From Candidatus Desulfatibia vada (GTDB lineage Bacteria; Desulfobacterota; Desulfobacteria; Desulfobacterales; UBA11574), in NCBI GenBank assembly GCA_014383215.1, contig JACNIG010000287.1, forward strand, positions 1 through 38,869: a stretch of 38,869 nt of DNA, written 5' to 3'. Of the stretch, positions 6,437 through 13,794 are shown piece after piece. The notes beneath the pieces are model-generated. The model searched no databases. It saw only the letters and a program-made list of their open reading frames with translations, and was not told where the DNA came from. Positions within the stretch are counted from its first letter, which is position 1. The number at the start of each line of letters is the position of its first letter. The translations under genes and the position numbers were made by a program.

Positions 6437-7732
6437 TTAAACTTCCATGCCGAAAAAATTGGTCATCAGGGTATTCAGCCATCTTTTAAGGACCGCATAA
6501 GAATAATATCGGGTGGCCACCTGGTAGTTGTGGTTGACCATTTGTTCTTTGAGCTCGGGAGAAGAGAGCACTTCTTTTACTCTCTGCACGGTTTTTTGGG
6601 TCAGAAAACCGTCCATGGCAATCAGGTCAAAACCCTTGGGCTCGATGTCGCGCACAAATGTGGCATAGCGATTGATGAGCATCGGTTTTTTGCAATAAAC
6701 GGCTTCCAGAAAGGCATTGCCGAAGCCTTCATACAGGCTGGGATAGGTTACAAAGTCGGCACAAGGATACACATCAAAAAGCGTATATTCCGATTTGATT
6801 CCACCCAGCTCGTTCCATGGATCCCGCATGCACATGCCCAAGAAACGAAGATCCACACCGCTTTCTTGGGCCTCTGCTCTGAGCCATTCGGCATATTCAT
6901 AGCCCTCGTCGCCGGCTTCGTGGGAAATAACCAGCTTGCAGCGCGGGTCTTGCAAATCTTTGACCAACTCAATAGCATGCTCGATTCCCTTGCGCTGGAC
7001 GATGCGGGTGGGCTGTAGAATCATAATATCATCGGTGTTTAAGCCGATGGTTCGTCGCAGGTTTAGGGTTTTTTCTTTATCTATCCGGAGTGGGTTGTCA
7101 AAATCGAGAATATTGGGAATGATGATAGACGCAATGCCGGTGCGCAGCGCAAGCTCTTCCTGGGCTGCGGAGCTTATGACCACATGTTCCATGTTGGGCA
7201 GATTCGGCGGAAAGGACATGCGCAGATAGTCTCCCACGGCACTAACGGCAAACCTCGTCCGCTCCCAGTAAAAATCATGATGGTGGGCAATGGTGGGTAT
7301 CTGGGTTTCGGCAATAATTTCGGTGATGGCAATCCCCAGGGGAACATGCATCGGAATGGTCAGTGCATTTTGGGGTACCAGCAGATCGATGGAAAACTTT
7401 TCGATGAATTCTTTGATGCGGTTTTTAAGTAGTATTTTCAGACTATGAATCTTGTCGGTGACCTCAGATGATCGTGCTTTTTTTCCTATGATGCGGTTAT
7501 TGATCCATTGGTTCTGTTCGTTCTGAAAAAAGGCTTCGGGTACCAGCATGCTCCTGTTCTGAGCCTTGTCCAACTGGCCGGCAAACCAGAAGCATTGGTG
7601 CCCCATCTGCCTGAACACCTGAGCCCATTTGCTGGCTTCCAGGGTGACGCCGTCGGTTCCGGCAAACCGCGTGGAGATAAATCCGATATTTTTACTCATG
7701 CCAAATTCTCCTTGCTGCCAAATTAATCTCAA
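6437..7732 (-). CDS. Glycosyltransferase family 1/4-like
   Basis: GT-B fold signatures: ILQPTRIVQRKGIEHAIELV and YPSLYEGFGNAFLEAVYCKKP. Confidence 0.85.
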   Translation of the reverse strand: MRLIWQQGEFGMSKNIGFISTRFAGTDGVTLEASKWAQVFRQMGHQCFWFAGQLDKAQNRSMLVPEAFFQNEQNQWINNRIIGKKARSSEVTDKIHSLKILLKNRIKEFIEKFSIDLLVPQNALTIPMHVPLGIAITEIIAETQIPTIAHHHDFYWERTRFAVSAVGDYLRMSFPPNLPNMEHVVISSAAQEELALRTGIASIIIPNILDFDNPLRIDKEKTLNLRRTIGLNTDDIMILQPTRIVQRKGIEHAIELVKDLQDPRCKLVISHEAGDEGYEYAEWLRAEAQESGVDLRFLGMCMRDPWNELGGIKSEYTLFDVYPCADFVTYPSLYEGFGNAFLEAVYCKKPMLINRYATFVRDIEPKGFDLIAMDGFLTQKTVQRVKEVLSSPELKEQMVNHNYQVATRYYSYAVLKRWLNTLMTNFFGMEV

Positions 7733-7801
7733 TCAGCCATAGAATTCAGCATAGTAACAAAATGTTAAATATTCAACTACCGATAGATAGTTTATCATAA
7801 T

Positions 7802-7831
7802 AAAAAATGCCGGAGGTCATCCGGCATTTTT
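7802..7831 (-). terminator. Rho-independent terminator
   Basis: TGCCGGA-ggtca-TCCGGCA flanked by A and T runs. Lies downstream of the 97 aa minus-strand gene. Confidence 0.75.
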
Positions 7832-7885
7832 CATTTCAAGGCACCAACCGGTTTTCGTGGGATGCAGGTTTTGCAATCCTTCCGG

Positions 7886-8179
7886 CTATTCTGCTTGTTT
7901 ATCTTCCAGTACCACATACGAGGTGACTTTAATGATTTTTACCTCGTCTTCCTCCGCAACAGTGCCCGTTACCTCCACCTTTTTGCCGGTTTGCTCCAGC
8001 AGTTCGTTTCCCATATCAGTGTCCGCAACCTCGTAAACTACACCCATATCTGTTACGACCTGGTAGCTATCGGTGACCTCGCCGATAAACGTCATTTCCA
8101 CCTCCACGGCCAAGACCGGAGCTGCCAACATCAGGACCAATATTGATACCGCCAAAATCCTAAAAGCTGTATTTTTCAT
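7886..8179 (-). CDS. Small exported protein, possible OB-fold (BOF-like)
   Basis: Signal peptide MKNTAFRILAVSILVLMLAAPVLA. Beta-rich body KKVEVTGTVAEEDEVKIIKVTSYVVLE. Confidence 0.75.
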   Translation of the reverse strand: MKNTAFRILAVSILVLMLAAPVLAVEVEMTFIGEVTDSYQVVTDMGVVYEVADTDMGNELLEQTGKKVEVTGTVAEEDEVKIIKVTSYVVLEDKQAE

Positions 8180-8255
8180 TGTCTCATTCCTTTCCTAAGT
8201 AAAAAATGGTTTTTCCTCCAAAGAGAGTCCTCTCTCTTGACGTATTTAAAGTAAA

Positions 8256-8271
8256 AGCAAAGTGCGTGCCA
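8256..8271 (-). promoter_or_regulatory. Sigma-54 (-24/-12) promoter
   Basis: Reverse complement reads TGGCACG-CACT-TTGCT, matching the consensus TGGCACG-N4-TTGCW. Points toward the 97 aa gene. Confidence 0.8.
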
Positions 8272-8412
8272 AAGCGTAACCATCTTAATTAACATCAATA
8301 TTTTATACATCCCCTGGATGTCGGAATTTAATGTTCCGATTGTACTCAAATGATGTGAATAGTTTTGGCTTAAATCCATATATATTCCATGATTAAAGGG
8401 ATATAGCTATAA

Positions 8413-8455
8413 GAACCGGCAGTTCTTGGTTTGTGTTTGCCGGAACTTCAAGTTC
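8413..8455. promoter_or_regulatory. Paired inverted-repeat candidate activator sites
   Basis: GAACCGGCAGTTC (8413-8425) and GAACTTCAAGTTC (8443-8455), both GAAC-N5-GTTC, 30 bp centre to centre. Confidence 0.4.
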
Positions 8456-8594
8456 ACTTTTGGAGCTTTAATATGTGTTTTTTGTTGAAATTTGCTGTTT
8501 CCAATACTATATGCTTAATCAAAATCGATTCATGCTTTTTTGTATGCTGTGCATACCACGACTCCGTTATTTTGTTTAATTGGAAAGGTCCGTC

Positions 8595-10007
8595 ATGGAA
8601 GGATTAATAAAATCTGCTTTGGTTGTTTCAAAGGATATGCAGGTTGTTGAAACGATCAAAGGCTGCGCTCATTCCGATTTCCGATTTTATAGTGCCGCCT
8701 ATAAATCCGGTGCCTTGGAAAAACTGCGGGAGGTGCGCTATGATATTGTTTTCATTGACCTTAATCTTCTAATAGAAAATGGCCGGCAAGGTTCGTATGA
8801 AAAAGAACTGGAACCGTTTAAACATCTGCACCCAACCATACAAATTGTTGTTATGTCGTCAGACAAAGATGTTCAGTATGCTGTCCGGGCCGTAAATGCC
8901 GGAGCAAGTCATTATCTCACCTATCCGATCATTGCCGAAGAGGTCCGTCTTCTTTTTCATACAATTTCTACATCCGTTACTCAGCAAGCGGAACTTGACT
9001 ATTTGAGGGATAAATTCTGGAAAGCAGATGCTCTTGATGTTGCCCAGACCATCAATCCTGTCATGAAAGAAGTGTTTAACAAGGTTCGAGCGGTAGCCCC
9101 AACGAAAACGACCGTTTTACTTATGGGGGAAACCGGTACCGGCAAAGGTGTTTTGGCAAAACTGCTACATAGCCATAGCCACCGGGAGAATGCCCAGTTT
9201 ATTAGTGTCCATTGCGGGGCCATCCCGGACACTCTTTTGGAAAGTGAGCTTTTCGGCCACGAAAAAGGTGCTTTCACCGGTGCCCTGCGCAAGAAATTGG
9301 GAAAATTTGAAATCGCCGGAAAGGGAACCATTTTTCTTGATGAAATCGCAACCATAACCCCGTCGGCTCAGGTTAAACTATTACAGGTGCTCCAAGACGG
9401 CCTTTTTAGCCGCGTCGGCGGTGAAGAAATACTTACAAGCAATGCACGCGTCATTGCGGCAAGTAACTCCAACTTAAAGCAGATGGCTGAAAACGGTGAG
9501 TTCAGAAAAGACCTGTTTTACCGGTTGAATGTTTTTCCCATCGAAATTCCCCCCTTAAAAGACCGCATTGAAGACATACCGGTGTTGATTCGCTTTTTTA
9601 TAAACAAATTTAACAAAGAATTTGGCAAAGAAATCAAAGATATCCATCCGGACGTCTTAGAAGCACTAAGGTGCTACTCCTGGCCGGGAAATATCAGGGA
9701 ACTGGAGAATCTTCTGGAGCGCTCTTATATTTTAGAAACCTCCTCGATGTTGACTCCCAAATGCTTTCCCAACGAACTGTTCGAGGGTCAATCCGCTACT
9801 GCTTTCCGGCCGATAAACTCCACCGTATCACTGGCCGAGGCAAGACGTAAAGCGCTTGAGGATTTTGAAAGAGAGTATCTTAAAGATCTTTTAGCCCGTC
9901 ACACAGGCAGCATTAAAGAATCGGCCGAAGAAGCCGATATCAGTACTCGCCAGCTTCACAAACTCATGTCTCGCTACGGTATCCGGAAAGAGGACTTTAA
10001 AGCATGA
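8595..10007 (+). CDS. Sigma-54-dependent enhancer-binding regulator with degenerate receiver domain
   Basis: Walker A GETGTGKG, GAFTGA loop, AAA+ domain and C-terminal Fis-type HTH (AEEADISTRQLHKLMSRYGI). Confidence 0.93.
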   Translation: MEGLIKSALVVSKDMQVVETIKGCAHSDFRFYSAAYKSGALEKLREVRYDIVFIDLNLLIENGRQGSYEKELEPFKHLHPTIQIVVMSSDKDVQYAVRAVNAGASHYLTYPIIAEEVRLLFHTISTSVTQQAELDYLRDKFWKADALDVAQTINPVMKEVFNKVRAVAPTKTTVLLMGETGTGKGVLAKLLHSHSHRENAQFISVHCGAIPDTLLESELFGHEKGAFTGALRKKLGKFEIAGKGTIFLDEIATITPSAQVKLLQVLQDGLFSRVGGEEILTSNARVIAASNSNLKQMAENGEFRKDLFYRLNVFPIEIPPLKDRIEDIPVLIRFFINKFNKEFGKEIKDIHPDVLEALRCYSWPGNIRELENLLERSYILETSSMLTPKCFPNELFEGQSATAFRPINSTVSLAEARRKALEDFEREYLKDLLARHTGSIKESAEEADISTRQLHKLMSRYGIRKEDFKA

Positions 10008-10155
10008 GCTTTTTTTTGATTGCAGTTGATCGATCTTTGTCCATCAGAAAAACTCGTTAGGGGTATTGACAATTCACATCGATACGGATAGATACGCTTG
10101 ACCACTTTCTTTGGCAACACCGAATACCTGTTCTTTTAACATGGAGGATCTATCA

Positions 10156-10713
10156 TTGAACAAATTAACTCCCAAGCGCCTGTTTTTTACTAAAGGTGTC
10201 GGATATCACCGCAATAAATTACAAAGCTTTGAGCTGGCTCTGCGACACGCCGGTATTGAAAAGTGCAATCTTGTCTATGTGTCCAGCATATTCCCGCCGG
10301 ATTGTAAAATTATCTCAAAAACTGCCGGGATAAATAAATTAAACGCCGGTCAGATTACCTTTATCGTGCTTGCTCGAGAAGATACCAACGAGCCCAATCG
10401 CCTGGTTTCAGCCGCCATCGGCCTGGCGCGGCCCAAAAACAGCAAACAGCATGGATATCTCAGTGAACACCATGCTTATGGTGAAACCATGAGAAAATCT
10501 GCCGATTTTGCTGAAGATCTGGCGGCCACCATGCTGGCTTCGACCCTGGGAATCGAGCTGGACCCGGATGTAGCTTGGGATGAACGCAAGCAGGTATACA
10601 AAGTCGGCAAGCGTTTATTTAAATCTCGCAGCGTGGCCCAATCGGCCAAAGGTCATAAAGACGGATTGTGGACAACGGTTATCGCCGGTGCGGTATTGTT
10701 GCTGGATGAATGA
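10156..10713 (+). CDS. Pyruvoyl-dependent arginine decarboxylase
   Basis: PvlArgDC pattern: [30 protein letters not shown] ... [10 protein letters not shown] (self-cleavage Ser-Ser). TTG start with GGAGG RBS; an ATG at 10141 is the alternative. Confidence 0.88.
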
Positions 10714-10784
10714 ACAGACAAGGTTGGATTGCCATTATGTTACAACGCAAAACCTAATTCAATGAAATTTTAAGACGATTCACA

Positions 10785-11855
10785 ATGCCAAAAAAATCCA
10801 TCTTCAAAGACTTCCCTGATATTATCCCGCCGTCGATTTCTAAGGGAATGTCGATTTCAGAACTGATCAATGCCTTCGGAAAGACATCTTTTGAGGCCAG
10901 AAATGTCTATCGCGGAAGCCGGCTTTATAAACGCATGCTCGAGGATAACGATACAATCTGGCTTGGTCTCGCCGGGGCAGGTGTCGCTGGTGGTATGGGC
11001 GGAATGTTGATTGCTTTGCTGGAAGCCGGATTTGTTGATGTGATCTGTTCAACCGGAGCCCAGGTGTACCATGATTTGCATTTTGCTTTTGATCTGCCGG
11101 TTAAGGCCATATCACCTTTTTGCGACGACGATGTTCTGCGGCGTCACGGTGATACCCGCATATATGATATCGGCATCCGCGAAAAAGAAACCCTTGATGC
11201 CCAGGATGAGATCATACGTAACTTTATCAGAGCAAGCTATAAACAGCATTTGTCCAAGGAACCGCTTGCAAGCTGGGAATTCAATTTCTACTTGGGAAAC
11301 TGGGTGTTGGAAAACAGCAAATATCCGGAACGCAGTTTTGTCGCCAAAGCAGCCGAGTTGGGTGTTCCAATATTCTGGGATTCATTGGCCAATCATTCCA
11401 TTGCCATGAATTTAGTCCTCACCGATCGGAAAGGATTTCCCATAACCTTATCAGCGCAAAAAGATATATTTGATTCGGCGGCCATTGCTTTTTCATCCGG
11501 GAAAACCGGTTTTATGGTTCTTGGGGGGGGGGGGCCCAAAAATTTCATTCAGCAAACAAGCCCAACGATCAGTCAAATCCTTAAAATTAAATTTGAAGGC
11601 GCAGAGCGCGGGATTCAGATCGGTACAGCGATTGAAAAAGAGGGAAGCTTATCCGGATGTACCTTCAGCGAATCGGTAACATGGGGTAAATACCGCTCGG
11701 CAGATGAAGAGATGTTGGTCCAGATCTGGGGTGAATACAGTGTTATTTTCCCTATTTTGGCGGCGTATTTATTGGACAATTGTGAAACAAGACCTTCCAA
11801 AAAGATTGTATCTCGAATGCCGGAGTTCATCGAAAAATTAGAGCATACTCAATGA
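10785..11855 (+). CDS. Deoxyhypusine synthase family protein (possible homospermidine synthase-type enzyme)
   Basis: DHS-like: LAGAGVAGGMGGMLIALLEAGFVDVICSTGAQVYHDLH ... FMVLGGGGPKNFIQQT, with catalytic-type Lys after the glycine motif. Confidence 0.88.
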   Translation: MPKKSIFKDFPDIIPPSISKGMSISELINAFGKTSFEARNVYRGSRLYKRMLEDNDTIWLGLAGAGVAGGMGGMLIALLEAGFVDVICSTGAQVYHDLHFAFDLPVKAISPFCDDDVLRRHGDTRIYDIGIREKETLDAQDEIIRNFIRASYKQHLSKEPLASWEFNFYLGNWVLENSKYPERSFVAKAAELGVPIFWDSLANHSIAMNLVLTDRKGFPITLSAQKDIFDSAAIAFSSGKTGFMVLGGGGPKNFIQQTSPTISQILKIKFEGAERGIQIGTAIEKEGSLSGCTFSESVTWGKYRSADEEMLVQIWGEYSVIFPILAAYLLDNCETRPSKKIVSRMPEFIEKLEHTQ

Positions 11856-12580: not shown

Positions 12581-12847
12581 TCAAACAGTATTGTTGTGTT
12601 CCAAAATCTCAAATTGATTTACTTGGATCAATTCTTTTCCGTCCAAGCGTTCAAACACCTTGCCGTTAACCTTCACTTTTTGATTGATGAAATCGCGCAA
12701 TTCCTTCCCGCGTTTGTAAGCCCTGACAATATATTCGCTTTCATCAAATGCCTGAATCGACACACCGGTTACGTTACCGTTATCATCCCATTGTTGCGGT
12801 ATGATAATACCGGTAACGGTCCGTTTGAGAGTTCTTTTTGATTTCAT
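12581..12847 (-). CDS. Hypothetical protein, possible OB-fold
   Basis: 88 aa ORF with coding-like composition: QKVKVNGKVFERLDGKELIQVNQFEIL. Confidence 0.65.
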   Translation of the reverse strand: MKSKRTLKRTVTGIIIPQQWDDNGNVTGVSIQAFDESEYIVRAYKRGKELRDFINQKVKVNGKVFERLDGKELIQVNQFEILEHNNTV

Positions 12848-13101
12848 GTTACTATCCTCATGGGAACGATATGTATCCGCTGGTTGACCATATCAGACGT
12901 CATCAATAATTAAGCAACGAACATGCCAGAATGTCATTGCATATGGAGTTAATGAACTTTTTATCACCACCACAGTCTCTTTTATGAGAAATCAGGGATG
13001 GTTCTCTTGCACCGACGGCGGGACAGGCATTAGCTTTTTAATGCTGAAAGTAATATCAGCGTTTTGCTGCAACAGAAGTCGGCTGTGTGCATACCAAACA
13101 A

Positions 13102-13145
13102 GAATTGCAGGTTCCGACTTTATTTAAAATCGGAACCTGCAATTC
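13102..13145. repeat. Long perfect hairpin in intergenic region
   Basis: GAATTGCAGGTTCCGA - 12 nt - TCGGAACCTGCAATTC, 16-bp perfect arms. Confidence 0.85.
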
Positions 13146-13434
13146 TGACAAACACACCGGTTAAATATAAATTGCGGTTTAATTTCCTTTTGCTTGTTTA
13201 AAAAATGACGCCATTAATAAAAACTCTCGTTGGTTAGTCGGAACCAGCCGGCAAAACCGGATTTTCAGGCTCTTTGGCAATAGTAATTCTATTAAAGTCC
13301 TTTTGTTTTCTAAATATGGTATGCATGTTGCATTTCATCCACTGGTTTAAGATCAAAAGACAGCCCCTGTCTTCAGGCTCCCCTTATAATTCCTTGGGTG
13401 CTGCAAAGATAGAGCTTTAACAGGAGCGCGATCA

Positions 13435-13794
13435 ATGCACCAAAAAGACCTTGCTTTTTTTAAAAAACTGCTGACTGAACAACTGAACGAGCTTATGGGC
13501 CTGGCAAACCACACGATTAGCAGCCTGTTAGATGTTGTGGATAGAGCCCCCGACCCTCTGGACCGGGCAACATTAGACTCAGACCGTACTGCACTGCTGC
13601 GGATCAGAGATAGAGAGAGCAAACTTATCCGCAAGATTAAAAGAACACTTGAAAGCATACACGATGGTACTTTCGGGATCTGTGAAATGTGCGAGGAAGA
13701 AATCAGCCTTGAACGCCTCAAAGCCAGACCGGTTGCATCGCATTGTATTAAATGCAAAACAAAAACGGAGGCTCAGGAAAAAGCGTATGGATAG
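13435..13794 (+). CDS. dksA: DksA/TraR family zinc-finger protein (paralog 1)
   Basis: Four-Cys finger CEMCEEEISLERLKARPVASHCIKCK; coiled-coil tip region DPLDRATLDSDR. Confidence 0.9.
   Translation: MHQKDLAFFKKLLTEQLNELMGLANHTISSLLDVVDRAPDPLDRATLDSDRTALLRIRDRESKLIRKIKRTLESIHDGTFGICEMCEEEISLERLKARPVASHCIKCKTKTEAQEKAYG

Follow-up and report, generated by a model that had tools for sequence, protein, structure and literature searches.

A sigma-54 promoter before the gene of a predicted small exported OB-fold protein in Candidatus Desulfatibia vada, and its probable activation through upstream palindromes by a divergently encoded enhancer-binding protein

In a contig of 38,869 nucleotides from Candidatus Desulfatibia vada (the whole stretch analyzed here, hereafter the window), genes for a small exported protein of 97 aa and for a sigma-54 activator diverge from a region that contains a -24/-12 element. 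The question raised by this locus is whether the element is a genuine sigma-54 promoter and, if so, whether the neighboring regulator drives it. On the evidence below, we consider it very likely that positions 8256-8271 are the sigma-54 promoter of the gene for the predicted small exported OB-fold protein, that the divergent neighbor activates it via palindromic sites, and that this forms part of a wider stress regulon. Features of the window are listed in Table 1.

Table 1. Positions of predicted promoters, palindromes and genes in the window
Feature	Coordinates	Strand	Remark
Terminator-like inverted repeat 3' of the 97-aa gene	7800..7834	-	absent from consensus terminator scan list
Small OB-fold protein (predicted), 97 aa, Sec-exported; predicted target	7886..8179	-	
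Sigma-54 promoter (97-aa gene)	8256..8271	-	-24 TGGCACG, -12 TTGCT; predicted +1 8245
Proximal enhancer palindrome UAS3 (predicted)	8320..8340	.	centre 59 nt above -24 T; score 20.3
Enhancer palindrome UAS2 (predicted)	8409..8429	.	centre 148 nt above -24 T; score 16.1
Enhancer palindrome UAS1 (predicted)	8439..8459	.	centre 178 nt above -24 T; score 14.3
Sigma-54 enhancer-binding protein, predicted activator	8595..10007	+	degenerate REC, AAA+ GAFTGA, Fis HTH
88-aa OB-like protein, without signal peptide	12581..12847	-	distant relative of 97-aa protein, profile E 4e-6
Second sigma-54 promoter TGGCATGTTCGTTGCT (88-aa OB-like gene)	12913..12928	-	
Enhancer palindrome pair (predicted)	13098..13149 (13098-13118, 13129-13149)	.	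31 bp apart
Third sigma-54-like promoter TGGTATGCATGTTGCA (variant) before dksA	13317..13332	+	
DksA, predicted target	13435..13794	+	TIGR02420 above cutoff

The 16-mer TGGCACGCACTTTGCT (8271-8256 on the minus strand) has zero mismatches to TGGCACGN4TTGCW, for which 0.009 exact matches are expected by chance in the 38.9-kb window, and it contains TGGCAC-N5-TTGCW with the GG and GC at the fixed spacing of sigma-54 promoters. By a hand-set sigma-54 weight matrix it ranks first in the window (score 19.5 of 19.9), and only two other sites pass, at 12913 (-) and 13317 (+). The exact consensus occurs 11 times genome-wide and the reversed control pattern 0 times; the other exact matches precede a response regulator, flagellar-type genes, a ZraP-like protein and a GlnD-like protein, as named from reading the sequences. 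RpoN is encoded in the genome (PF04552 at G000:C31, E 1.4e-59), and a sigma-70 consensus scan of 7700-8700 gave nothing above chance. With the C of GC taken as -12, +1 is predicted at 8245, which leaves 66 nt of leader before the ATG at 8179. At the level of sequence, 8256-8271 is confirmed as a real sigma-54 promoter, as the first-pass annotation had proposed from the consensus; its estimate of about 65 nt between transcription start and start codon agrees with the computed value, and the conservation in relatives that it had suggested checking is found, with sites before homologues in L054, L055, L056 and L062-L065.

The exported protein of that annotation is likewise recognizable downstream of the promoter, its open reading frame having a ribosome site (AGGAAAGGA) and a Sec-type signal that ends VLA/VE. 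A consensus terminator scan of 7700-8700 gave nothing above chance. For the 70-residue domain no Pfam or NCBIfam match above cutoff was obtained, and membership in DUF5818 (PF19135) was rejected at 13.5 bits against a gathering cutoff of 27. The AlphaFold2 model (mean pLDDT 80.6, core above 90) has a confident beta-rich core whose best PDB matches are OB folds (RPA32 and SSB), although weak ones (E about 3e-3, TM-score about 0.5); the predicted structure is a small OB fold. This predicted fold is what the protein would have in common with DUF5818 and the BOF/YgiW OB-fold proteins; YgiW (1nnx) is weakly present among its PDB fold matches (rank 28, E 0.022), and there is no BOF Pfam match. YgiW-type proteins are exported and stress-linked. 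Beside the gene lies a glycosyltransferase gene (6437-7732, minus strand), whose top-scoring NCBIfam model (score below cutoff) is that of the compatible-solute enzyme mannosylglucosylglycerate synthase; in L054, L056 and L057, too, a glycosyltransferase of this type adjoins either the small OB gene or the activator.

Three predicted enhancer palindromes lie above the promoter, with the consensus aTCGGAAc-N5-gTTCCGAt and with UAS1 and UAS2 spaced by 30 bp. Short 9-mers such as AATCGGAAC recur upstream of homologue promoters far above shuffles, and an unsupervised palindromic EM search of 58 promoters of the order yielded one motif from repeated random starts, aTCGGAAct-NNN-agTTCCGAt, which is present in 40 of the 58 promoters versus about 0.02 expected per 300 bp. 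Across the order there are typically three sites, with their centres at about 195, 164 and 62 nt upstream of the -24 T. As a held-out test, 71 loci were fetched via the activator, not via the target; a broad protein alignment had proved too heterogeneous for pattern scanning, and a clade-specific stretch of 87 residues of the activator took its place. The palindrome was found at 53 of 74 sigma-54 sites in these loci (reversed control, 0/3), with sharp peaks at 60-69, 160-169 and 190-199 nt above -24. Outside Desulfobacterota, close homologues of the activator stretch were also met in L292, L294 and L298, whose MAGs bear the labels KSB1, Candidatus Euphemobacter and Aminicenantes; transfer or a binning error may account for them.

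The joint pattern of proximal palindrome plus promoter had 40 matches in 30 of 390 genomes and 0 in the control, and its sole match in the source genome of 4.8 Mb is the promoter at 8256-8271. Tandem pairs occur at three places in that genome (8412-8455, 13101-13146 and C401:7018). The palindrome by itself has no genome-wide enrichment there (17 sites vs 25 in the control) and was rejected as too noisy a predictor of the regulon; enrichment is limited to its combination with sigma-54 sites or to tandem pairing. Comparison among genomes shows, in this form, the predicted promoter together with its enhancer geometry.

The neighboring gene product contains a receiver, an AAA+ domain with GAFTGA (PF00158, E 8e-64) and a Fis-type HTH (PF02954, E 8.6e-6), which places it in the NtrC family and agrees with the sigma-54 activator previously read at 8595. 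Its best NCBIfam match is PrsR (TIGR02915, PEP-CTERM-box response regulator), an identity rejected by its score of 346.9 against a cutoff of 502.6. The REC-AAA+-Fis HTH order is common to PrsR and NtrC-family regulators, whereas the receiver differs from theirs in lacking the acidic residue and the lysine. Among 71 regulators of this clade, the Asp is kept in all 71 and GAFTGA in 67, the acidic position is S/T/A in 68 and D in 3, and the lysine is replaced in 68 (mostly by Tyr) and kept in 3. The receiver thus has the Asp (Asp55) of a phosphorylation-controlled response regulator and has lost the acidic residue and Lys required for ordinary phosphorylation, and it is therefore probable that a signal other than the usual phosphorelay switches the activator. 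No obvious kinase gene adjoins it in the window. Clade members in relatives are 51-65% identical. Cultured relatives with a clade activator include Desulfonema magnum 4be13 (L234), Desulfatitalea alkaliphila (L272) and Desulfoferrobacter suflitae (L250). The divergent layout reported earlier holds in the window and fails as a conserved feature: the genes are convergent in L055 and L063 and far apart in some relatives.

The palindrome is present in 20 of 21 promoters of loci with a full-length clade regulator and in none of 10 beside canonical YLTKP regulators; in three cases that look like exceptions the regulator gene is truncated, and another regulator was unclassifiable. By this comparison of predicted sites, the palindrome is associated with the activator clade. 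These counts bear on the strongest alternative, that 8256-8271 is a true sigma-54 promoter driven by another activator, for example the G000:C197 paralogue or a canonical two-component response regulator, the neighbor being incidental. Since the source genome has 34 matches to related activators, another of them could bind; the paralogue is 54% identical to the activator and could share its specificity, and in other genomes sigma-54 sites occur at homologues of the 97-aa protein that adjoin canonical kinase/regulator pairs (L069-L076). We regard this explanation as unlikely, because the palindromes are absent beside canonical regulators and present beside the degenerate-receiver clade, and reappear with the same spacing in independent loci fetched via clade activators. 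The pairing of regulator and target, which the first-pass annotation had called likely, is supported by the enrichment of sigma-54 sites at homologues and by the palindrome tracking the clade.

It is less probable still that the palindromes are operators over sigma-54 promoters, bound by some other DNA-binding protein such as a LexA-like or other repressor, rather than enhancers. GAAC-N5-GTTC does resemble dyad operators of unrelated repressors, and the missing genome-wide enrichment of the palindrome alone would fit such a role; against this, the sites are fixed relative to -24 in the far-upstream zone of sigma-54 activators, which is unusual for a repressor operator, and their presence follows the activator clade.

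Within the order, 66 of 243 genomes have homologues of the 97-aa protein. Among the 94 with enough upstream DNA, a strong sense-strand sigma-54 site lies within 300 nt upstream in 47 and an antisense site in 1, and the control of unrelated genes in the same loci gave 12/509; sigma-54 control therefore appears to be a feature of the protein family. The chance explanation, in which the -24/-12 match is accidental and the 97-aa gene is read from another promoter, draws on the half or so of the family having no recognizable sigma-54 site and was rejected as practically negligible, given that chance would yield about 0.01 exact matches per window of this size, and given the conserved sites in relatives, the homologue enrichment and the joint pattern. 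Some family members adjoin canonical two-component pairs, and the family is therefore not tied solely to the divergent activator. A second exported small-OB subfamily was observed near canonical histidine kinase/sigma-54 response regulator pairs (L069-L074, L076), where the promoters have mostly good or near-consensus sigma-54 sites without palindromes; it would represent the same protein family under a separate regulator.

The divergent activator is also predicted to act at a second place in the window. The palindrome pair at 13098-13149 occupies the middle of the interval between two divergent sigma-54 promoters, that of the 88-aa OB-like gene and that of dksA, approximately 180 and 210 nt above each, and the -24 element of the dksA promoter is a TGGTA variant. 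Promoters of the same type precede dksA in relatives (L053, L266, L273 and L283), and the arrangement of OB gene, dksA and activator recurs in L053 and L063. The promoters at 12913 and 13317, the enhancer palindromes, the degenerate receiver and the IHF-like site described below are additions to the earlier reading of this DNA.

Of a further 16 strong sigma-54 sites inspected in the source genome, one has the palindrome, and it adjoins the activator paralogue. The paralogous cluster (L059, G000:C197:10000-21951) encodes this 54% identical activator and OB-like genes, and has several variant sigma-54 sites (TGGCATCCTTGTTGCA, TGGTACAAAGATTGCT and TGGCATAAAGATTGCT) with a strong palindrome at one only. 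Another sigma-54 site lies 162 and 192 nt below the tandem palindromes at C401:7018. This composite promoter (L332:900-1346, minus strand, in G000:C401) precedes an apparent groEL 3' end with the rest of the gene absent, possibly a chaperonin remnant or an assembly artefact; the enhancer pair is also found in a genome of the same genus (G001:C399).

Genes after composite promoters give the predicted regulon, shown by comparison of such promoters among genomes, several of its members being known from relatives and not from the source genome. In the held-out set, small OB proteins follow directly in 19 of 52 cases. In other genomes the genes include DksA, GroES, Hsp20, HU, S-adenosylmethionine decarboxylase and lysine-2,3-aminomutase-like proteins, as well as a PLP enzyme, HAD hydrolases, a saccharopine-dehydrogenase family protein, a universal stress protein and acidic exported proteins. 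The mixture of OB proteins, DksA, chaperones, HU and polyamine enzymes points to stress or stationary phase. The regulon may include polyamine synthesis: in L220, L221 and L223 a composite enhancer and a sigma-54 promoter precede S-adenosylmethionine decarboxylase. The window has, 3' of the activator (10111-11855, plus strand), genes for a pyruvoyl-dependent arginine decarboxylase and a deoxyhypusine-synthase-family protein, the latter with its best NCBIfam score, below cutoff, to a homospermidine biosynthesis model; these genes are consistent with a polyamine link.

Between enhancer and promoter, an IHF-like 13-mer (at most one mismatch to WATCARNNNNTTR) was found in 23 of 36 promoters with the proximal site versus 1 of 37 other sigma-54 promoters of the same loci, and in about 6% of shuffles. 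It spans about -45 to -33, and 16 of the 23 start exactly 19 nt above the -24 T. The site is clear in these relatives and weak at the 8256-8271 promoter, with at least two mismatches.

From these patterns we infer the following mechanism. The AAA+ enhancer-binding protein encoded at 8595-10007 would activate the sigma-54 promoter of the 97-aa gene by binding the palindromes, a distal pair on the same helix face (30-31 bp) often with a proximal third about 60 nt above -24. Once bound, it would loop onto the sigma-54 polymerase, probably aided by IHF just above -24, and its action would be independent of ordinary phosphorylation. The same activator would drive the divergent pair of 88-aa OB gene and dksA at 12.9-13.4 kb, and across the order its clade would drive chaperones, HU, polyamine enzymes and other small proteins as a stress or stationary-phase regulon with a stress-protective output. 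More speculative, and in our judgment rather doubtful, is the extension of this scheme to a sigma-54 stress or stationary-phase response of Desulfobacterota and neighbors in the place of RpoS, defined by the clade with a non-phosphorylatable receiver, the fixed two- or three-site enhancer, IHF, and a co-induced set of exported and cytoplasmic small OB, DksA, HU, GroES, Hsp20, polyamine and compatible-solute genes.

For sulfate reducers and syntrophs, a large group that has been little studied, the analysis provides a sequence-defined regulon: its activator is named, its binding motif and targets are listed, and its geometry can be tested. A small OB-fold family with no curated model above cutoff gains its first context, stress-linked sigma-54 control. 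Since the clade lacks the phosphorylation residues and is yet tied to a conserved regulon, the question arises of what the activator senses. In open-licence papers we found no description of this activator clade, palindrome or target set, and searches there for DUF5818, a sigma-54/DksA/polyamine regulon and degenerate-receiver activators gave no account of the system; the proposed switch, found across sulfate-reducing bacteria and relatives, is apparently undescribed.

Sigma-54 regulons with adjacent activators and IHF are themselves well known, including in Desulfovibrio vulgaris (PMC4641369, PMC3897727). The study of its sigma-54 and enhancer-binding-protein regulons lists 37 activators (PMC4641369), and the likeness lies in an activator adjoining its target, palindromic upstream sites above -24/-12 and a small regulon per activator. 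None of the 37 is assigned OB-fold proteins, dksA, HU and polyamine genes, and in the sections compared, by their text, neither these targets nor a fixed two- or three-site enhancer is described. The orp operons of D. vulgaris are controlled by DVU2106, IHF and sigma-54 from divergent promoters, with IHF needed for activation (PMC3897727). DVU2106 is an activator of a different type, a single-component regulator according to PMC4641369, and the orp targets are cell-division genes. Both systems have divergent sigma-54 promoters with a common enhancer region, a predicted one in the present case. The IHF-like 13-mer of the relatives resembles in its position the orp IHF sites, which lie at about -42/-43 between enhancer and promoter and where the role of IHF was proved by mutation and gel shift (PMC3897727).
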